In this document: piece by piece, positions 7,906 to 20,425 of the stretch
How the letters are laid out: the number at the start of each line of letters is the position of its first letter
Position numbering within the stretch: position 1 is the stretch's first letter
Origin: Paenibacillus swuensis
Lineage (GTDB): Bacteria > Bacillota > Bacilli > Paenibacillales > DY6
Reading direction: 5' to 3'
Length of the DNA stretch: 64,000 nucleotides
Assembly (NCBI RefSeq): GCF_001644605.1
Contig: NZ_CP011388.1
Span: forward strand, 2,498,501 to 2,562,500
Position numbers and translations under genes: made by a program
Notes under the pieces: generated by a model
What the model was told of the DNA's origin: nothing
The model's input: the letters and a program-made list of their open reading frames with translations, nothing else
The model's database searches: none

Positions 7906-9141
7906 ATGAACAAATTAGCGAATAAACTTGAAGCGAGTTATATGGAACAGTTCTCTTGTACCGGAGGGGCATGTGAGGATACTTGCTGTCAAGGCTGGAA
8001 AATTTATATCGACCGTCCGACCTACAAGAAATATAAGAATATTAAAGATGCTGAATTGGGGCCCATGTTGGATGAGGCTGTTAAGCGTCAGAAGAAAGAT
8101 GCGAACGATAATCGGTATGCCTATATTCAGTTGGATGAGCAAGGGTTCTGCCCGTTGTTAACTGAAGAGAAGTTATGCTCACTTCATAAGCAGTTAGGCG
8201 AAAGTTACTTATCGACGGTCTGCAGTAAATATCCTAAGATCTGGAACTCTGTAGATGGAACATTGGAAGTTTCGGGGGTTGTTTCCTGTCCTGAGATTGC
8301 TAGAGGTGTGTTATTAAATCCGAATTACCTTGAATTTAATGCAGGCATCCATTCATTTGAACAATTTAACAAGAACATGATTGCAAACGGAATTAATACA
8401 ACTGCCAACCATGACTCCGGCAATCTAACACCGCTGTTCTGGCCATTGCGAACTTTCGCCATTCAGGTACTTCAGAATAGATCTTACAGTATCAATGATC
8501 GGTTGATTATGCTGGGCATGTTCTTCTTTGAATGTTCAGAGTTGGTTCGTGACAATCGTTCTGATACGATTGATGAATTAATCGCAAACTACACCCATGT
8601 CATTGATTCTGGTGACTTGCGTGAAACCTTATCGGAAATTCCAACGGTCTCTTCCATTCAGGTTGAGTTTTTAAGACTGTTGACTGAGATTTTAATTCAG
8701 AACAAGAGCGCACGCTATGAACAATGCTTTACAGAATTTAAAGCAGGCATCGGCATGGATGCTGCGTTTGATCTCGATCAAATAACAGTTAAATATGAAT
8801 CAGCGTATAATGATTACTATGTACCCTTTTTTAATGAGAGAGAGTATATCTATGAGAACTACCTAGTAAACTTCGTGTTTAGCAAGCTGTTTCCGTTTAA
8901 TGAGAAGGACTTGTATGATAGTTATCTAATGATGATCATTCATTATTCTCTAATTAAGATGAACTTGATTGGCATGTCCGGATATCATAAGAGGCTTGAT
9001 GAAGAATTGGTTATTAAACTCTTCCAATCGTTCTCTAGGAATTTTGAACACAGCCAATCGTCATTGACATCCCTAATGAAAATTGTTCATAGTGTGGGCT
9101 ATACACAGATGTCCCAACTTATGATTTTAATAAAAAACTAA
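7906..9141 (+). CDS. fliB: Flagellin lysine-N-methylase FliB
   Basis: The 411-residue protein has the FliB-type cysteine cluster FSCTGGACEDTCCQGW (Cys 18, 23, 27, 28) and further cysteines in GFCPLL, LCSLHKQLG, TVCSKYPK and VVSCPEIARG. In Salmonella FliB methylates surface lysines of flagellin. The gene sits between hag and flaG with its own ribosome site (GAAGGAG), after the hag terminator. Position and cysteine pattern make the call firm; the substrate here is inferred to be the neighbouring Hag. The metal or Fe-S role of the cysteines is an inference. Confidence 0.9.
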   Translation: MNKLANKLEASYMEQFSCTGGACEDTCCQGWKIYIDRPTYKKYKNIKDAELGPMLDEAVKRQKKDANDNRYAYIQLDEQGFCPLLTEEKLCSLHKQLGESYLSTVCSKYPKIWNSVDGTLEVSGVVSCPEIARGVLLNPNYLEFNAGIHSFEQFNKNMIANGINTTANHDSGNLTPLFWPLRTFAIQVLQNRSYSINDRLIMLGMFFFECSELVRDNRSDTIDELIANYTHVIDSGDLRETLSEIPTVSSIQVEFLRLLTEILIQNKSARYEQCFTEFKAGIGMDAAFDLDQITVKYESAYNDYYVPFFNEREYIYENYLVNFVFSKLFPFNEKDLYDSYLMMIIHYSLIKMNLIGMSGYHKRLDEELVIKLFQSFSRNFEHSQSSLTSLMKIVHSVGYTQMSQLMILIKN

Positions 9142-11177: not shown

Positions 11178-11576
11178 GTGTTAAGCCAACAAATGAGAAA
11201 CACATATACGCAGAATACTACTTTAACATCGACTCCAAATCAGCTTTTACTCATGCTATATGATGGAGCAATACGTTTCTGTAAACTGGGGATTGAAGGC
11301 ATTGAATCTAATAACTATGAACTAGCAAATACCAACTTGTGTAAAGCTCAGGCCATAATCTATGAGTTTATTTCATCATTGGATATGAAACAGCCGGTGT
11401 CCAAGGACTTATTGGTTATGTATGAATACATTATTCATCTGCTTGTTCAAGGGAATGTTAAGAAAGACCTCATCTTGATTACTGAAGCGTTAGGCTACAT
11501 TGAAGAGTTAAGGGAGACATGGGCAGAAGCTTCAAGGCTGGCAGGAAGCATGAAACCCTCTAACCATTATGTATAG
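11178..11576 (+). CDS. fliS: Flagellin export chaperone FliS
   Basis: The 132-residue helical protein has the FliS signature start (NTYTQNTTLTSTPNQLLLMLYDGAIRFC) and the helix pair LVMYEYIIHLLVQGNVKKD. FliS binds the C terminus of Hag, prevents premature polymerisation and takes it to the export gate. The start is GTG at 11178 behind GAGGAGGA. It overlaps fliT by 8 bp. Confidence 0.96.
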   Translation: MLSQQMRNTYTQNTTLTSTPNQLLLMLYDGAIRFCKLGIEGIESNNYELANTNLCKAQAIIYEFISSLDMKQPVSKDLLVMYEYIIHLLVQGNVKKDLILITEALGYIEELRETWAEASRLAGSMKPSNHYV

Positions 11577-11904
11577 TTGGATGGAACAACTCGAAACCAT
11601 GACGATGGCATTGGTTCATCAGATTGAGCACTCAACCGAGGAAGACATTGTGGCCTTCGTTCAACAACGTGAAGAACACATCGACCTGTTAAAGAACGGA
11701 ACGGTCAATCAAGCTCAGTTACAAGAAATGAGAGACCAACTGAGCAAGTTGCTGGCGTACGATGAGATCATTCTGGGTCGTATGAACGAGTTCAAAATAT
11801 CTGCTGAACTGGGAATGCACAAAACAAGCACAGCCAGAAAACAAAAGTCTGCTTATGAGAGTACAATTCTTTACGATAGTCTGTTATTCGACACAAAAAA
11901 ATAA
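11569..11904 (+). CDS. fliT: FliT-like flagellar chaperone
   Basis: A 111-residue, largely helical protein overlaps the fliS end by 8 bp, the standard location of fliT. Sequence conservation in this family is low; assignment rests on position, size and predicted helices (QLQEMRDQLSKLLAYDEIILGRMNEF). FliT chaperones FliD. It is the last gene of the flagellar block. Confidence 0.75.
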   Translation: MYSWMEQLETMTMALVHQIEHSTEEDIVAFVQQREEHIDLLKNGTVNQAQLQEMRDQLSKLLAYDEIILGRMNEFKISAELGMHKTSTARKQKSAYESTILYDSLLFDTKK

Positions 11905-11907
11905 ATA

Positions 11908-11936
11908 TTGACAGACTTGTAATGGGGTTATAATAT
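11908..11936 (+). promoter_or_regulatory. Sigma-A promoter ahead of the c-di-GMP riboswitch
   Basis: TTGACA (11908-11913) is perfect. TATAAT follows with a 15-bp spacer (11929-11934), or TAATAT with 17 bp (11931-11936). It lies directly after the fliT stop and upstream of the riboswitch, so the adhesin gene has its own transcript. Confidence 0.75.
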
Positions 11937-11961
11937 TGTACTGGGTATAATTTCCTAAACT

Positions 11962-12060
11962 AAATACTGGCAAACTTGCAGAAATGCAAGGACGCAAAGC
12001 CATTGGGTCTTCCGTAGTAGGTATATAGTAACAACTGCTATCAGATCGCCAGGTTGCAAA
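11962..12060 (+). promoter_or_regulatory. Class I cyclic-di-GMP riboswitch (GEMM-I)
   Basis: The conserved elements of the GEMM-I aptamer are present in order: GGCAAAC, a stem closed by a GAAA (GNRA) tetraloop (CTTGCA-GAAA-TGCAAG), the GGACGCAAAGCC block, a second stem region and the closing GCCAGGTTGC, whose TTGC pairs with the GCAA of GGCAAAC. A terminator hairpin lies 14 nt downstream, then the ribosome site of the vWA/IPT gene. The RNA should therefore sense c-di-GMP and control transcription elongation. Whether the ligand turns the gene on or off cannot be decided by eye. Confidence 0.92.
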
Positions 12061-12074
12061 TCTTTCATTATCTA

Positions 12075-12118
12075 AAAATGGAGCATTAGCAATGTCTAAT
12101 GGCTCCATTTTATTATTT
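12075..12118 (+). terminator. Riboswitch expression-platform terminator
   Basis: A 10-bp outer stem (12075-12084 with 12102-12111) encloses an ATTAG/CTAAT inner stem with one bulged G and a 6-nt loop. The TTTTATTATTT tract follows. It sits between aptamer and ribosome site, so it is the likely regulated element. Confidence 0.88.
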
Positions 12119-12134
12119 AATAGGAGGAGTTTCG

Positions 12135-15014
12135 ATGAGAACAACAGGCAAGTGGTTTAACGTGTTTTTATGCTTTCTTTTCGTACTGTCCACACTGAGC
12201 TTCTCTCAACAGACCGAAGCGGCAGCGGATTATGTCAATGTGAACAAGTCAGTGAATCCCACTCAAATTACAACTGAGGGTGAAGCTGAAGTTACATTAC
12301 AGATACAAGGTACTCCACCTGTTAATGTCATTATGCCTAGTGATGTTATTCTTATCATCGACCGCTCCGGTAGTATGAGAGGTCAGAAGATGAGCGACGC
12401 AATTAAATCAGCGAAAGAATTTGTTGATCTTGTAGATTTAACAAAGCACCAAGTCGGTATAGTTGATTTCAGCTCAGACACTAAGGCTCTACCACTGACA
12501 ACAGATGCTGTACAATTGAAAAGCTACATCAACGGACTCGCAGCGAACGGATCTACAGCAACGGGTGATTCCATTGATAAAGCCATGGAAATGCTTGCAA
12601 ACCATAGACCCGAAGCTCAGCCTGTTATCGTTCTTATGACAGATGGAGATGCGACTGTTCCTACGGTCAATCCATACCAGTATGCCAAAGATAAAGCGTT
12701 GTTGGCAAAAGAAGCGGGTATTGTATTTTATACGATTGCATTGCTAGACACTAATGCGGATCCGACTACCAGCGGTCCGAACATCCTATTGAAAGAAATG
12801 GCGACAACATCTTCACATCATCATTTCGTACTTGGATCTGTAGGATTGTCCGATATCTACAAAGCGATTGTTCGTGAGATCGGTATGGCAAGTGCCTACA
12901 ACATTGTCGTTTCGGATCTCGTCGCACCTGAATTCGAGATTGTTCCTGACTCTTACAAAGATAATATACCTCAGCCTACTGTAGTCGGAAATCAATTGCA
13001 GTGGAACTTCCTTGAATTGAAAAACAGCCTTCTAACGTTCAAATACAAGATTAGACCTAAAGATAAGAATAAAGCAGGCACTTATTACACTTCAGATTTA
13101 ACTTCTAAATTAGAATATAATGACTATGCCGGCGCAAAGCGGATGAAATTTCTACCTGCGGTTCAACTGAGTGTTAAGTTCCCGGCACCGGTAATTACCT
13201 CTGTAGAAGCTAATGAAGGCGCACCGGAAGGCGGCAATACAATTACATTGAATGGTACTAATTTCCGTCAAGGTGCGACCGTAACCTTCGGTGGAACGCG
13301 TGCAACGAGCGAGCAATTCGTCAGCTCAACCGAGGTGAAAGTTGTCGTGCCTCAAGGTGCACAAGGTTCAGTAGAAATAAAATTAACTAATCCTGATAAC
13401 CAAATTGCACTAAGTAATTACAAATACAAAGCAACGCCGGTGGTGACTTCCATTGACCCGGCAACCGGGCCTTTCAAAGGCGAAAACCTTGTTGCAATTA
13501 ACGGTAAGTATTTTATGCCTGGGGCCAAAGTCACGCTAGGTGATAAATCTGCAGCTATTGTCCTGGTACATCCGAGTGTAATTAAAGTTACTGCTCCTCA
13601 AGCTGCTGCAGCAGGTCCGGTCAATGTTACTGTTGAGAACCCTGACGGTAGCAAAGTAGTTGTAGCCAATGGATATACCTATGAAGAAGAAATAATTGAG
13701 AAGCTTGAAATTACAGCTGTTTCACCTAACAAAGGATTGGTAAGCGGCGGAGATTACGTAGTCATTGACGGTAAGAAATTCGTTCCTTCAACTAAAGTAT
13801 ATTTCGGCACCACGGCTGTATCGGTGGGGACGTTCTTCTCTGAGACTAAAATCAGAGTAACAGCACCTGCGGCTACAACTGCCGGATTAGTCGATATTAC
13901 CGTAGAGAACACCGACGGTAGAAGAGCGGTACTTGTGGGCGGGTATACGTATGAACCGCTTCCGGCAGCACCTGCACCTCAAATCACCAGAATTACGCCT
14001 AATACCGGAGAATCAACAGGCGGGACTACGGTTATCGTAGACGGAGCTAATTTTACGACACAATCCAAAGTATTCTTTGGTAGTGTTGAAGGCGTTAGTG
14101 TAACTTATTTCTCCCCAACAAGACTTAGAGCCTATGCACCGGCAGGCACTGTCGGAGCTGTTGATATTAAAGTCGTGAATAAAGATCTGCAAGAAGCAGT
14201 GGTAACAGGTGGATATACTTACGTTGCGCCGGCCATGGCACCTGCTCCTACCGTTACTTCCTTGACACCGAACAGCGCACCTTTGAATGGCGGAACTATA
14301 GTACTTGTATATGGTACAAATTTCGTTAGTGGTGCAAAGGTTTACTATGGAAGTACGCAAGCACAAGTCAACAATGTCATTAGCACGCGTATAACATCCG
14401 TTTTGCCACAAACGGCTGCACCCGGTCAAGTCAATGTTAGAGTCGTCAATCCGGACGGACAGGAGTTCATACTGACCAATGGGTTCACCTACACAGAGCT
14501 CTTGCCAACAATTACGGCTACAACGCCGAACAAAGGGCCTCTTGAGGGTGGAACATTTGTAATCATCGACGGAACGAATTTCGATAGAAACATCCGAGTT
14601 AACTTCAATGGCGTCAATGTTCCCGTAACATACTTTAGCGATACGCGTATCCGGGTAACCTCTCCAAGCAGTGTCGTAGCAGGTCCCGTAACGTTCACAT
14701 TGACGAATCCGACCGGTTCGCAAGTCTCCGGTACATTTACTTATGAGAACCCGGTACTGCCTAGTCCGGTCATTACAAGACTGAACAGCACAAGTGGACC
14801 GTTATCGGGCGGGAGTTTCCTAATAATCGATGGATCCAATTATACAACTAGTTCTAAAGTGTATATGAATGGCGTGCTTGTGCCAAACACATTCTTCTCG
14901 GTTAACCGATTGAGAATAACAGTACCTGCTTCAGCTACTCCTGGAACTGTGGATATCTATGTCGAGAATGCAGACGGTCAAAGAAGTAACGTTGTAACCT
15001 ACACCTATCTATAA
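12135..15014 (+). CDS. Secreted vWA-domain protein with seven IPT/TIG repeats (adhesin-like)
   Basis: The 959-residue protein has a signal peptide (about 1-31), a von Willebrand A domain (about 70-240) with the metal-binding MIDAS motif DRSGSM, an intermediate beta domain (about 260-350) and seven IPT/TIG immunoglobulin-like repeats of about 85 residues, each opening with a form of ITxxxPNxGPxxGG and a GxNF segment. It ends after the last repeat without LPXTG motif, SLH domain or membrane anchor. The frame is open from 12099, but that part lies in the terminator hairpin; the ATG at 12135 with AGGAGG is the start. Such domains usually mediate protein or surface binding. The c-di-GMP riboswitch upstream suggests a role in attachment or the motile-sessile switch; this is inference. 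Confidence 0.88.
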   Translation: MRTTGKWFNVFLCFLFVLSTLSFSQQTEAAADYVNVNKSVNPTQITTEGEAEVTLQIQGTPPVNVIMPSDVILIIDRSGSMRGQKMSDAIKSAKEFVDLVDLTKHQVGIVDFSSDTKALPLTTDAVQLKSYINGLAANGSTATGDSIDKAMEMLANHRPEAQPVIVLMTDGDATVPTVNPYQYAKDKALLAKEAGIVFYTIALLDTNADPTTSGPNILLKEMATTSSHHHFVLGSVGLSDIYKAIVREIGMASAYNIVVSDLVAPEFEIVPDSYKDNIPQPTVVGNQLQWNFLELKNSLLTFKYKIRPKDKNKAGTYYTSDLTSKLEYNDYAGAKRMKFLPAVQLSVKFPAPVITSVEANEGAPEGGNTITLNGTNFRQGATVTFGGTRATSEQFVSSTEVKVVVPQGAQGSVEIKLTNPDNQIALSNYKYKATPVVTSIDPATGPFKGENLVAINGKYFMPGAKVTLGDKSAAIVLVHPSVIKVTAPQAAAAGPVNVTVENPDGSKVVVANGYTYEEEIIEKLEITAVSPNKGLVSGGDYVVIDGKKFVPSTKVYFGTTAVSVGTFFSETKIRVTAPAATTAGLVDITVENTDGRRAVLVGGYTYEPLPAAPAPQITRITPNTGESTGGTTVIVDGANFTTQSKVFFGSVEGVSVTYFSPTRLRAYAPAGTVGAVDIKVVNKDLQEAVVTGGYTYVAPAMAPAPTVTSLTPNSAPLNGGTIVLVYGTNFVSGAKVYYGSTQAQVNNVISTRITSVLPQTAAPGQVNVRVVNPDGQEFILTNGFTYTELLPTITATTPNKGPLEGGTFVIIDGTNFDRNIRVNFNGVNVPVTYFSDTRIRVTSPSSVVAGPVTFTLTNPTGSQVSGTFTYENPVLPSPVITRLNSTSGPLSGGSFLIIDGSNYTTSSKVYMNGVLVPNTFFSVNRLRITVPASATPGTVDIYVENADGQRSNVVTYTYL

Positions 15015-15031
15015 GTTCATGCAATATCTTA

Positions 15032-15066
15032 TGCCCAGCGACCTATGTCGTTGGGCATTTTGGTTG
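15032..15066 (+). terminator. Terminator after the vWA/IPT gene
   Basis: TGCCCAGCGAC (15032-15042), loop CTAT and GTCGTTGGGCA (15047-15057) form an 11-bp stem with one G-T pair, followed by TTTTGGTT. The group II intron fragment begins at its 3' edge. Confidence 0.93.
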
Positions 15067-15175: not shown

Positions 15176-17188
15176 CGAACATTCAGACGATGGCCCAGGA
15201 CCGAGAAACGAGTAACCCAAACGGGTGAGTTTGAGCAATACGCACACTCTGCGGACGGTAACTTGTACAGCGCGATCAACAAGAATGTAATTGACGTATT
15301 CAACTACACACCTAATGGAAACGTATTGAATAAGACCCGTAACGGTCAATTGGTCTTAAATTATGGTTATAACGCAGAAGGTCAAGTTTCGGAAGTAACC
15401 GACATGAACAACCAACGCGTTAATTACACCTATGATCCACTAGGCAGATTGAAAGATGTTCTTACTAACGACAAGCTTGTCGCATCCTATAATTATGATG
15501 CAGACAACAACGTTAGCGGCATTAATTATAACAGTGGAACCAATGTTCAGTACGGCTACGATAAGGATTCCAACATTCTATCTATTTTGAGCCGAAACAA
15601 ACAAGGTAACACCGTAGACAGTCACTCTTACAGCTATGATGGAAACGGTAATAAACTAACTGCAACGGAAAACGGACAAACAACGTCGTACACTTATGAC
15701 AAACTGCAAAGACTAACCCATGTAAACTATCCAGGTAAAGGCGCAGAACAGTATAGATATGACGATGCCGGAAACCGGATTGAGCACAGTGTTGCAGGTG
15801 TGACAACCTCGTATTCGTATGATCGGAACAACAGACTGTTATAGATGAGTAACCCACAAGGTCAGACAACGTTCAACTATGACCCGAATGGGAATATGAT
15901 GAGTAAACTTGGTCCGAACGGGAAAGACGAATTCAAATACAACGGATTCAATCAATTGATAGAGTCCGCCATGTCTGACGGCAACTGGATGCGTTATAGT
16001 TATGATGCACTTGGACTGCGCTCGAGTATCGCTGAGAATGGAGTGCTTACGAACTTCACGTTCGACGGTGACCAAGTCATGTCGGAAACGACAGCATCCG
16101 GTAATCGTGTGGCTAACTATGTTCGCGGTTATGGTCTTTTGTCCCAAGTTGATCCTCAAGGTCGTCTCTATGACATGTTAAGCAATGGTCATGGCGATGT
16201 AACAGGACTTTTGAACTGCAAGGGTGAATTGGTTAACAGTTACACTTACGACGCTTTTGGTCAAACTACGGAGAAGAAAGAACTCATCCAGAACCGCTTC
16301 TTATACTCAGGAGAGCAGTATGATGAGATTACCGACACTTACTACCTGCGTGCAAGAAACTATGACCCGAACTTGGGCCGATTCACGCAAGAGGATACAT
16401 TCCGTGGGGATGGGTTAAATCTTTATTCTTATGTGAAGAACAATCCTGTTAATTTTGTGGATCCTAGTGGAAATATATGTGTTGAGGTAGGTGGTGGTGG
16501 TACTTCCACATGGGATGGAAAGAAATTAAATTCCATTACTACCACGTCCAAAGAGTTGGAACAACACTATTTAAAAGTCCTCTATTCTGTAAGTAGTTCT
16601 AATTCAAATAATTATTGGAAGGCTCGAGAGTGTTTAGGTAATAATAAAAACAGTTGGTGGAGGTAAACACGCTGCTGAAGCTAAGAGAAAGATTGTTGAA
16701 GATCTTCATGAAGGTAAAGCAGCAGAAATGCAACTGATGGCTGAAATAAGTATGTCAATTAATACAGGTGGCGGAGGTCGTGGCAAAGCAGTTATTCCTA
16801 TTGTAAGGGAGTTGCTAGTGTAACAGGAACTATAGCGAAAAAAGTTTCTGGTGCATTATCTAAGGGTGCGGAAAATGTCGCTAAGATTGGCGACAGCTTT
16901 GGAAAAGCCGGAACACTCGTTAAAAATTCTGACACTAAGATTGAATGGTCAAAGGTTTCTAATCATGGCTTGGAGAGAATGAATGAACGTGGTGTAACAA
17001 AAGAGATGGTGGAATCTCGGGTCAAGAATGGTAAGGCACTTTCACAGAATAATGGAAGCAAGCATTTGTTTTTCACGGATGAAGGCGCTGCGGTTATTGC
17101 CAACGATGGAACGTTAGTGACGGTAATTCCGAAGAGCAAATATGATGATGCTTATAAAGCATTGTCGGAATCTTTATTCGGGAGGTAA
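15176..17188 (+). pseudogene. Rhs/YD-repeat polymorphic toxin gene, decayed (amber stop and two frameshifts)
   Basis: The frame starting near 15176 encodes YD repeats (YDPLGRL, YSYDGNGN, YTYDKLQRL, YDDAGNRI). It is interrupted by an in-frame TAG at 15842-15844, then continues unchanged (NPQGQTTFNYDPNGN). The Rhs core terminus follows (YYLRARNYDPNLGRF, NLYSYVKNNPVNFVDPSGN), ending at 16666. The next coding segment is in another frame (16638-16823, VGGGKHAAEAKRKIVEDLHEG). A third, from about 16808, returns to the first frame and ends in the toxin-like domain HGLERMNERGVTKEMVES...VVxVIPKSKYDDAYKAL-type sequence (stop 17188). The N-terminal secretion part is missing. The tip domain resembles DUF4258-like/BECR-type toxin domains; that is a tentative assignment. 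Any product would be broken. Confidence 0.85.
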
Positions 17189-17791: not shown

Positions 17792-20425
17792 TTGAAACCA
17801 TCATCTACATTTAAACGTTTCATCTCACTCGCGCTTGTTATGATACTTATTGTATCGACATTCGCACCGCTCGCAGGGGCAGCTACTAAGACTACCAAAA
17901 AACATTGGGCAGACGCCTGGATTCAACAATGGAACGAACAAGACCTTATCTCTTCAGCGACATTCCAACCGAACGCACCAGCCACTCGCGGCGAATTGGT
18001 GAATTGGATTAATAAAGTGTTTGCTATTCCTGCGACATCTGGAAATGTAGCGAAGAACGTCTATTTCACAGATGTCCCCGTGAGCAGCTCGGTATACAGC
18101 AATGTGTACACAGCGGTGCAAGCCGGTTACATCTCTGGACTGGGCGACGGTACATTTGGCGCACAGAAATCAGTAACACGTCAGGAAACAGCTGTTATGC
18201 TGGCGAAACTTTTTGCGCTTAGTACAACAACTTCGGACAAGCTTGCTTACACCGATGGTGCATCCGTGGCAAAATGGAGCGCAGGCGCAGTTCAATCCGT
18301 GACGGAACAAGGCTTCATGACAGGCAATGCGGGTAAATTTTCGCCCAAAAAAGTTCTAACAAAAGCCGAAGCAATTGTCCTCATCGACCGCGCTTTGAAG
18401 TTGCCTAGTATCACAATCAACAAAGCAGGCACTAATGGACCGACAATAGGTCATTCCTACCTTCCGAAGAACGTTATCATTAACGTGCCGGGTGTAACGC
18501 TACAGAACGTAACGATTGCGGGCAACCTGGAAATCGGTGAAGGCGTTGGTCAAGGCGAAGCATACATCCGCAACGTGAACGTAAAAGGTACTACGACCGT
18601 CAAGGGCGGCGGGGAGAATAGTATCCATTTTGAAAATGCGGTCATGGTTACGATTGTTGTAGATAAAGCGAATGGTACCGTTCGTCTGGTAGTTGAAGGC
18701 AGAACGCACATTAGCGACATCATTATCCAATCTCCTGCCAAAGTAGAAGCTTCGAACGAGTCGGCCATCAATGCCGTGACGTTGTCGGAGGAGTTGCCTA
18801 AGGATAGTCACGTACAATTGCTAGGTTCATATGAGACTGTAAACGTGAAGGCTAGTAGCATTGTCGTTGATTTGCCAAAAGGTAGCGTAGATAACATGAT
18901 CGTCGACCCTACTGCAAAAGGCACCACAGTAAACACATCTAAAGAAGTCGAAATCCTTAAGTTGATCATGAATGCTGCGATTAAAGTAACCGGTCAAGCT
19001 TTGGTTCAAAATGCAGTCGTGAACGCCGCGGGCATTACGATGGATAAGGCTGCAACGAAGATGGAAAAAGGCAAGGACGTACCAGCGGATGTTCAAATTA
19101 CGGTTGGCGGCCAAGCGAAGGGTGTAGGCACAACAACAACGGCGACACCTACACCGACAGCTCCTGCTACAAGCACCCCGGATACGGGATCTGTTACGCC
19201 ACCTACCACAACTACACCGGATTCAGGTTCTATAACGCCTCCAGTAACACAACCGGAGCCTCAACCTAAACCGGAAGATCAGACAGCACCAATTGTTACG
19301 GGTGTAACAGGGAATGTATATATTGGCGATACACTAACATTGCAGAGTAATGAAGATGGCCATATCTACATTGTGCCTGAAGGTTCAACGTTCACTAAAA
19401 TTTATTTGGATATGATTGTGTCTAACACTAAAGGTGTTAAAGCTGAAAACATTAAGGATACAGATATTACTCTTTCTACTCAGGGTCTGACAGAAGGTAG
19501 ATATGCAGTTGTCGCGGTAGATGCAGCAGGCAATGTGTCTCAACCTGTTAGGTTGAAAATAGAATCTTTAACTCAAACTACATTAACCTTTTTGCATATT
19601 GGGATAGGCTTCAATGATCATATTGGTCTCAGATTTAATAAAATTATTTACAGTGTTTACAGTACCTCAGAAACTTTAAAAGCAGCAGTTTCCATCTCCA
19701 AGGATGGAATAAACTTTACCGCGCTTGCGGCCGAAGATCGGGTATCCATTTCTCAAGATGGTGTGTCTATTGATTTTCATGAAGAATTCAGAGGTAAAAC
19801 TTATATAAAATTGGCTTCTAATTCCGTTGAAGATACAGGTGGGGACATATATCCAAATGAAATCTCAGTAAACTTTAACTCAGGAACTAATGTGGATTTA
19901 CTCTCTGCAGATAGAATAGATCCTAATGGAAGAGTAGACTTTAAAGTTGACGCAGCGGTTGCAGTCTATTTTGTACCAGACAATGTATGGGGAACCTTGA
20001 CTAATTATGAGAATGCAGTAGTTAGAGGAGATGCTCTTAAACGTATAGTTTTGCCAAATGAGGTTGATCAGCCAATATTTTTTGATACAACAGGGCTTCG
20101 GGAAGGTTATTATCGATTAATGGTATGGGCTGGTGAAAGCAAACAGATTAAAATAAGTATTCCCGAAAGTCCTAGAATAAACCTTAACCAAGTTGATATT
20201 ATTCATGATACGGTCAATAGGACCGCTACCTTTACTTTTAATAATCTGTTGCCAACCGATGTTATCAAAGTTTACGAGATTAATGCATCAACACCTATTT
20301 ACACTCTATCTCCAAAAGCAGGAGAAAATTTCGTGAAAATCGAAGGCTTACAACTTTACAAAATGCATCAATACACGCTAACTCAACAAGGTAAAAAAGA
20401 AAGTATGGTACAAGAGATATTGTAA
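17792..20425 (+). CDS. S-layer-homology (SLH) surface protein with beta-repeat and Thr/Pro linker
   Basis: The 877-residue protein starts at TTG (AAGGAG seven bases upstream). A signal peptide (about 1-30, ending LAGA) is followed by three SLH domains: about 38-90 (WADAWIQQW...TRGELVNWINKVF), 92-140 (TAVQAGYISGLGDGTFG...TRQETAVMLAKLF) and 150-205 (QSVTEQGFMTGNAGKFSP...KAEAIVLIDRAL). SLH domains bind pyruvylated cell-wall polymers, so the protein is displayed at the surface. Residues about 210-440 look like a beta-solenoid (VTLQNVTIAGNLEIG, VNVKGTTTVKGGG). A Thr/Pro/Ser linker follows (about 445-495), then an unrecognised C-terminal half that is AT-richer in codon use. The function of the C-terminal half is unknown. 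Confidence 0.88.
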   Translation: MKPSSTFKRFISLALVMILIVSTFAPLAGAATKTTKKHWADAWIQQWNEQDLISSATFQPNAPATRGELVNWINKVFAIPATSGNVAKNVYFTDVPVSSSVYSNVYTAVQAGYISGLGDGTFGAQKSVTRQETAVMLAKLFALSTTTSDKLAYTDGASVAKWSAGAVQSVTEQGFMTGNAGKFSPKKVLTKAEAIVLIDRALKLPSITINKAGTNGPTIGHSYLPKNVIINVPGVTLQNVTIAGNLEIGEGVGQGEAYIRNVNVKGTTTVKGGGENSIHFENAVMVTIVVDKANGTVRLVVEGRTHISDIIIQSPAKVEASNESAINAVTLSEELPKDSHVQLLGSYETVNVKASSIVVDLPKGSVDNMIVDPTAKGTTVNTSKEVEILKLIMNAAIKVTGQALVQNAVVNAAGITMDKAATKMEKGKDVPADVQITVGGQAKGVGTTTTATPTPTAPATSTPDTGSVTPPTTTTPDSGSITPPVTQPEPQPKPEDQTAPIVTGVTGNVYIGDTLTLQSNEDGHIYIVPEGSTFTKIYLDMIVSNTKGVKAENIKDTDITLSTQGLTEGRYAVVAVDAAGNVSQPVRLKIESLTQTTLTFLHIGIGFNDHIGLRFNKIIYSVYSTSETLKAAVSISKDGINFTALAAEDRVSISQDGVSIDFHEEFRGKTYIKLASNSVEDTGGDIYPNEISVNFNSGTNVDLLSADRIDPNGRVDFKVDAAVAVYFVPDNVWGTLTNYENAVVRGDALKRIVLPNEVDQPIFFDTTGLREGYYRLMVWAGESKQIKISIPESPRINLNQVDIIHDTVNRTATFTFNNLLPTDVIKVYEINASTPIYTLSPKAGENFVKIEGLQLYKMHQYTLTQQGKKESMVQEIL

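Follow-up and report, generated by a model that had tools for sequence, protein, structure and literature searches.

CmoA is a secreted protein that Paenibacillus sp. NAIST15-1 requires for movement on 1.0 to 1.5% agar (PMC5072692). It is found both in secreted and in cell-associated form and sits around cells and cell clusters; a cmoA mutant is rescued by adding the secreted protein, cmoA transcription rises on agar, as that of flagellar genes does, and the CmoA level is lowered in a hag mutant (PMC5072692). Among riboswitches for cyclic di-GMP (c-di-GMP), the aptamer and the terminator coexist in the OFF switch Cd1 of C. difficile, in which a competing antiterminator uses an aptamer strand; with the ON switch pilM, this strand is used by the terminator itself (PMC9262584). 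Here we analyzed a stretch of 64,000 nucleotides (nt) from Paenibacillus swuensis (NZ_CP011388.1, positions 2,498,501 to 2,562,500; referred to as the window), in which an aptamer of the c-di-GMP-I class lies between fliT and a homolog of cmoA. RNA folding and the comparison of related leaders make it reasonably probable that this leader acts as a transcriptional OFF switch. Control of motility genes by c-di-GMP-I switches is already known, so that the riboswitch class is not new; its target here and the recurrence of this target would be new, as far as can be judged from searches among open-licence papers, in which no listed title or abstract opening describes a riboswitch before cmoA. In the article on cmoA, the main text has 0 occurrences of either "riboswitch" or "c-di-GMP" (PMC5072692).

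The aptamer was identified with the Rfam covariance model RF01051 (c-di-GMP-I, also termed GEMM-I). With 57 bits, the match is above the cut-off of 35, and it covers the whole model (1-87 of 87), and RF01051 is the sole Rfam family detected in the window at gathering thresholds. The aptamer starts 54 nt past fliT, the stop of which is at 11904, and is followed by the open reading frame (ORF) of the cmoA homolog (Table 1). Alignments indicate that it keeps the conserved blocks GGCAAA and GACGCAAA as well as the invariant C (12057). We assume that the ligand-pocket positions are G20, A47, and C92 (Vibrio Vc2 numbering), of which A47 was not singled out; a G rather than an A at position 20 corresponds to c-di-GMP specificity. 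Upstream of the aptamer, a sigma-A type promoter (TTGACA at 11908-11913 and TATAAT at 11929-11934) matches at all 12 positions, which none of 200 shuffles equaled. Its spacer of 15 nt is below the usual 17, and a generic scanner gives an alternative with a 17-nt spacer (TTGACA/TAATAT) instead. Since the promoter is directly behind the fliT stop, with no space for a terminator in between, the gate should act on fliDST read-through too. The terminator consists of a stem of 15 bp, interrupted by one bulge (about -15 to -16 kcal/mol), and a U-rich tail. Its stem ends 10 nt ahead of the Shine-Dalgarno sequence, and it is absent from the output of the generic scanner. Given its own promoter match and the hairpin that follows it, the cmoA homolog is likely a one-gene unit.

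The encoded protein of 959 amino acids contains, according to Pfam, a VWA domain (PF00092, 4.8e-18) and seven TIG stretches (PF01833); its signal peptide was assigned by eye. The metal-site residues of the vWA domain, which we take to form a MIDAS, are conserved in six homologs. The ORF of NAIST15-1 (locus L096; 1,064 amino acids, one vWA domain, and eight TIG stretches) agrees with the published CmoA, and the window protein is 42% identical to it over 981 columns, with a like domain order. Both proteins have a signal sequence, one vWA domain, and tandem IPT/TIG repeats, and both genes are located behind fliD-fliS and a small gene (PMC5072692). By sequence, the window gene is a cmoA homolog. 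The two loci differ in that cmoA of NAIST15-1 is probably cotranscribed with yvyC-fliD-fliS (PMC5072692), with no aptamer found, whereas the window gene is preceded by a promoter match of its own and by a c-di-GMP-I leader. By analogy with CmoA, the window protein would be secreted, surround the cells, and ease movement on dry surfaces. As CmoA is both secreted and cell-associated and the added protein rescues the mutant, a covalent anchor may not be needed. An earlier note, made from the letters of this DNA, had proposed the GEMM-I aptamer, the sigma-A promoter, the terminator just before the ribosome site, the secreted protein with a vWA domain and seven IPT repeats, and a link to flagellar genes. 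These observations all held up, and so did this part of its interpretation; the uniqueness of the gene and the role of c-di-GMP in promoting attachment, which it had also proposed, did not, as detailed below.

An alignment of the N-terminal 340 residues, run over species genomes, retrieved homologs in 45 named loci, and of 392 genomes sampled from the order, 44, among them that of the window, contain a strong match. The possibility that the gene is unique to the window genome was thus rejected, and, contrary to the earlier note, other Bacillales do have such a gene at this place; 29 CmoA homologs, including those of Cohnella thermotolerans and a Clostridium, had already been listed (PMC5072692). 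Flagellar genes (flagellin, flaG, fliD, or fliS) are found upstream in all 45 named loci, and in seven of them (L101, L104, L107, L108, L112, L115, and L116) the homolog is directly behind flagellin. In the window, the upstream genes encode flagellin, the flagellin lysine methylase FliB, FlaG, FliD, FliS, and FliT, the last of which matches PF05400 with an E value of 2.8e-4 and 22.1 bits, under the cut-off of 29.5. In five relatives (G043, G052, G058, G012, and G022), which represent two other families of the order, the homologous ORF starts 12 to 18 nt past a small gene that occupies the place of fliT; Pfam assigned no family to this small gene in the three relatives scanned, and no aptamer was found at the homologous gene in any of the five. 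In switch-less relatives, the gene is mostly close behind flagellar genes, a placement that would link cmoA to motility another way.

Twenty-eight aptamers of the order served to build a covariance model (R1), with which 80 sources were searched; the training alignment of R1 contains the window aptamer, so that the match on the window is given by construction. Besides the window, 10 of the 45 named loci were found to have an aptamer directly before cmoA, namely, L074 (P. curdlanolyticus), L076, L078 (P. xylaniclasticus), L080 and L081 (two P. harenae strains), L084 (P. terricola), L088, L094, L110, and L116 (Clostridium punense). Two cmoA-type genes stand in tandem in L110, each preceded by an aptamer, and L094 has a second aptamer ahead of a neighboring IPT protein without vWA. 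R1 detected no aptamer in 35 of the 45 loci, including L113 and L086. Eleven of these 35, mainly those with longer gaps, were scanned with all Rfam families, and no other RNA element was found at the leader; the scan yielded only two matches, both to group II intron pieces, and these are downstream of the gene in L091. Rescanning L086 and L091 without filters gave nothing above 2 bits for the c-di-GMP-I aptamer, and that of L113 gave 9 bits (E 0.025 in a 571-base search). L113 (5838-5950) has kept the 3' half of the aptamer and the terminator, and L086 (5880-5950) has kept only the terminator, with an unrecognizable aptamer; both leaders are likely riboswitch relics. A second model comprising aptamer and platform (R2), derived from 10 leaders and run with strict filters over the 392 genomes of the order, produced nine matches of at least 93 bits in seven genomes, the next one being at 80.3. 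Six of the nine are training sequences of R2. The other three, all behind fliS and a gene in the fliT position, are the second switches of L110 and L094 and one in G145 (L193:8228-8487), where an aptamer fragment is followed by an intact aptamer and an IPT protein without vWA; this arrangement suggests that a deletion between two tandem switches removed cmoA. Promoters of their own were better than shuffles (<0.05) in 4 of 13 leaders (the window, L074, L110b, and L080), and we have lowered our confidence in an own promoter as a general rule for these leaders. In L116, the aptamer starts 1 nt past the flagellin stop.

According to the model that we favor, the 3' strand of the aptamer (GUUGC, 12053-12057) and the linker would, in the absence of ligand, pair onto the 5' arm of the terminator and block it. 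In its presence, this strand would be retained in the aptamer, the terminator would form, and RNA polymerase would halt before the ribosome site of cmoA. At low c-di-GMP levels, corresponding to the motile state, cmoA would be made along with flagella, and rising c-di-GMP would end its transcription. In minimum-energy folds of window transcripts ending at 12095-12105, the aptamer 3' strand, which includes the invariant C, pairs with 12089-12093 and the linker is paired to the terminator 5' arm; the terminator prevails after its 3' arm is made. Overall, 6 pairs of the aptamer strand and 10 of the linker are predicted with the terminator 5' arm or loop. The terminator itself does not use the aptamer strand, as in the OFF-type, Cd1-like layout. 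The window switch and Cd1 are alike in aptamer class, separate terminator, antiterminator on the aptamer strand, flagellar locus, and OFF direction, which is only predicted in the window, and they differ in that Cd1 gates a block of flagellar genes, whereas the window switch gates one secreted accessory protein (PMC9262584). The cyclic-dinucleotide switch pilM has a closely similar aptamer domain but places the terminator on the aptamer strand, unlike the window (PMC9262584). The genome contains 11 GGDEF and 7 EAL matches, so that c-di-GMP is probably made and removed in this organism.

Table 1. Features of the fliT-cmoA interval and its flanks in the window
Feature	Positions	Strand	Basis
fliT, last of the flaG-fliD-fliS-fliT series	11569..11904	+	PF05400 below threshold; place after fliS
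Sigma-A type promoter, TTGACA-15 nt-TATAAT	11908..11934	+	12/12 matches, 0/200 shuffles
c-di-GMP-I (GEMM-I) aptamer	11959..12061	+	RF01051, 57 bits, E 1.7e-8
Predicted antiterminator (12053-12057 with 12089-12093, 12059-12069 with 12077-12087)	12053..12093	+	Minimum-energy fold
Intrinsic terminator; 5' arm from 18 nt past the conserved aptamer C	12075..12111	+	Folding; covariation in 12 leaders
Shine-Dalgarno sequence AGGAGG	12122..12127	+	Sequence
cmoA homolog, 959 amino acids, vWA and seven IPT/TIG	12135..15014	+	Pfam, alignment
Terminator-like hairpin after cmoA	15031..15058	+	Scanner

Twelve leaders were folded, namely, those of the window, L074, L076, L078, L080, L084, L088, L094, L116, and L193 and the two of L110. 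A number of features are shared among them. (i) The terminator starts 9 to 22 nt past the invariant C in all 12. (ii) In the nascent RNA, the terminator 5' arm or loop is paired to the aptamer strand in 10 leaders, the window included (5 to 7 pairs in nine leaders and 2 in L076), and not in L074 and L080; the linker forms such pairs in all 12. (iii) With the P3 pairs of the aptamer forced, the full-length terminator is obtained in all 12 leaders; this "bound" state consists of the forced P3 pairs only, the two pocket bases not being held unpaired. (iv) The energy of the antiterminator beats shuffles (<0.05) in nine leaders, the exceptions being the window, L074 (0.085), and L080 (0.132). (v) The terminator helix covaries, with five pairs changed on both sides and a score reached by none of 500 shuffles, and for the outer antiterminator stem, 87.5% of cells are paired, versus at most 53.1% when the stem is slid. 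By layout, 12 of the 13 leaders of the interval are OFF-like, with the terminator apart from the aptamer. The second switch of L094, also called OFF-like, was excluded from these 13 because its hairpin enters the coding region, and the automatic layout calls are rough, L002 being readable either way. Taken together, the comparison supports the OFF direction well, and the window alone supports it moderately. Together with the relation to CmoA, this layout indicates that c-di-GMP would turn a motility factor off and not an adhesin on.

Other data weigh against the predicted OFF switch. (i) The P1 helix, which is unpaired in the Rfam model itself, has a duplex energy of +1.3 kcal/mol in the window, where no stable duplex is predicted, and is the poorest among 47 switches compared; the window aptamer may therefore bind weakly. 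(ii) The antiterminator energy of the window is better than that of 93.5% of the shuffles (0.065), which is marginal, and the number of aptamer-strand pairs alone beats shuffles (<0.05) in 1 of the 12 leaders (L084, 0.029). (iii) Covariation in the antiterminator amounts to a single two-sided change, matched in 115 of 500 shuffles, and was rejected as proof of this structure because it is too weak. (iv) The unforced full-length fold contains the terminator in 10 of the 12 leaders. As the terminator is favored in the free full-length fold, any switching must occur during transcription; control would be kinetic, with the finished leader favoring the terminator in either state. (v) The layout of L081 is weakly ON-like, with a terminator that overlaps the aptamer. 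(vi) Among 33 other c-di-GMP-I switches, which are the other four of this genome and 29 mostly top-scoring matches and hence not a random sample, 16 are OFF-like, 7 are ON-like (one weakly), and 10 are without a terminator, so that the OFF-like layout alone is not special. (vii) NAIST15-1, the strain in which the role of CmoA was shown, is among those with no aptamer found at the gene.

Three alternatives were considered. The protein may have a role other than surface movement, for example, at the flagellar filament or on the plant surface, and still be turned off by c-di-GMP. We consider this rather unlikely: the identity to the studied CmoA is only 42%, and the seven homologs right behind flagellin would suit a filament-associated protein, but the domain order and the kind of locus are those of CmoA, and the drop of CmoA in the hag mutant and the enveloped cell clusters fit both roles (PMC5072692). 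A second alternative, which appears unlikely, is that of a decaying switch that has lost P1 and responds poorly, so that the terminator merely attenuates cmoA at a fixed level. The 5.01-Mb genome contains five RF01051 matches (83.8, 79.8, 75.2, 61.6, and 57 bits), of which that of the window is the weakest; this, the unpredictable P1, the terminator favored anyway in the full-length fold, and the decayed leaders that retain the terminator in L113 and probably L086 are in line with decay. A precedent of a silent switch is Bc1 of Bacillus thuringiensis, a conserved c-di-GMP-I switch that gave no response in vitro or in vivo and thus also speaks against control by c-di-GMP in the window; like the window switch, it is from the Bacillota and has intrinsic terminators, and it differs in that it has two of them and in that its downstream genes are unresponsive to c-di-GMP (PMC11218506). 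However, the window aptamer scores 22 bits over the cut-off, its conserved core blocks are intact, the antiterminator is still predicted, and a strong promoter match is retained. The third alternative, an ON switch by which c-di-GMP raises a vWA/IPT attachment protein as cells settle, could draw on the vWA domain with its conserved metal-site residues and on the IPT repeats, both of which occur in adhesion proteins, as well as on the weak ON-like terminator of L081 but is improbable in view of the OFF layout of 12 of the 13 leaders, the window included, the flagellar genes upstream in all named relatives, and the role of the nearest studied homolog, CmoA, as a motility factor (PMC5072692). The OFF logic fits the place of the gene and the known role of CmoA, which a c-di-GMP-activated adhesin would not.

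The predicted OFF switch would thus assign a likely function to a seeming orphan adhesin gene, with the expected direction of control reversed, and would tie c-di-GMP, in a simple and testable way, to the collective movement of Paenibacillus-type bacteria on hard surfaces. The natural variants at the locus, with the switch present, absent, different, or decayed, represent ready-made comparisons.

Switch presence was mapped on a tree of 48 vWA domains obtained by a quick method. The distribution of switch carriers corresponds to 5 changes (at least 3 of them forced by starred branches), as compared to a mean of 10.7 for shuffled data, and none of 500 shuffles was as low. The window belongs to a starred group of 19 rows; of the 12 rows with a switch, 11 are in this group, and the remaining one is Clostridium punense. 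Among 46 aptamers compared, the eleven nearest to that of the Clostridium (identity of 0.71 to 0.80) are all from the cmoA interval, and gene and switch therefore probably have a common history across classes. For the L081 aptamer, the closest sequences are ordinary c-di-GMP-I switches, and its platform differs, so that it looks like a separate acquisition. We tentatively propose, as one possibility, a recurrent riboswitch-cmoA cassette that would make c-di-GMP the gate on a shared, secreted movement factor. One switch subtype would travel with the gene between Paenibacillus-type bacteria and a Clostridium, would have been replaced at least once (in L081) by a c-di-GMP-I switch unrelated to it, and would decay wherever it is dispensable (L113 and L086), and c-di-GMP would determine for each cell whether it bears the cost of a public good of the moving colony.

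As regards neighboring genes, the flagellin lysine-N-methylase FliB (7906-9141; NF038110, 319 bits) is encoded between flagellin and flaG in the window, unlike in G043, G052, G058, G012, and G022, where a FliB homolog is found downstream of cmoA. Downstream of the window cmoA, an RHS/YD-repeat protein is split into two ORFs (15263-15844 and 15845-16666) and is apparently a broken gene; these pieces are placed between cmoA and the gene of an SLH protein (17792-20425), after which hpf follows.

The other four c-di-GMP-I aptamers of the genome precede genes of different types. Two of them, at G000:C1:1132594-1132687 (+) and 1230005-1230097 (-), are located ahead of genes for a surface protein with three SLH domains and for a transglutaminase-like protein that is secreted. 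The aptamer at G000:C1:162413-162507 (-) (L002, L071) is ahead of a gene for a PilZ-domain protein (PF07238, 3.6e-8), so that c-di-GMP may, through this RNA element, control one of its own likely receptor proteins. The one at G000:C1:1885788-1885877 (-) (L004, L073) precedes a gene for a 50-residue SinI-type anti-repressor (PF08671, 9.7e-11), and a GNAT gene comes next. A Wzz/exopolysaccharide gene set and genes for two SinR-like regulators are located nearby, and it is possible that this aptamer links c-di-GMP directly to a SinI/SinR-type biofilm switch.

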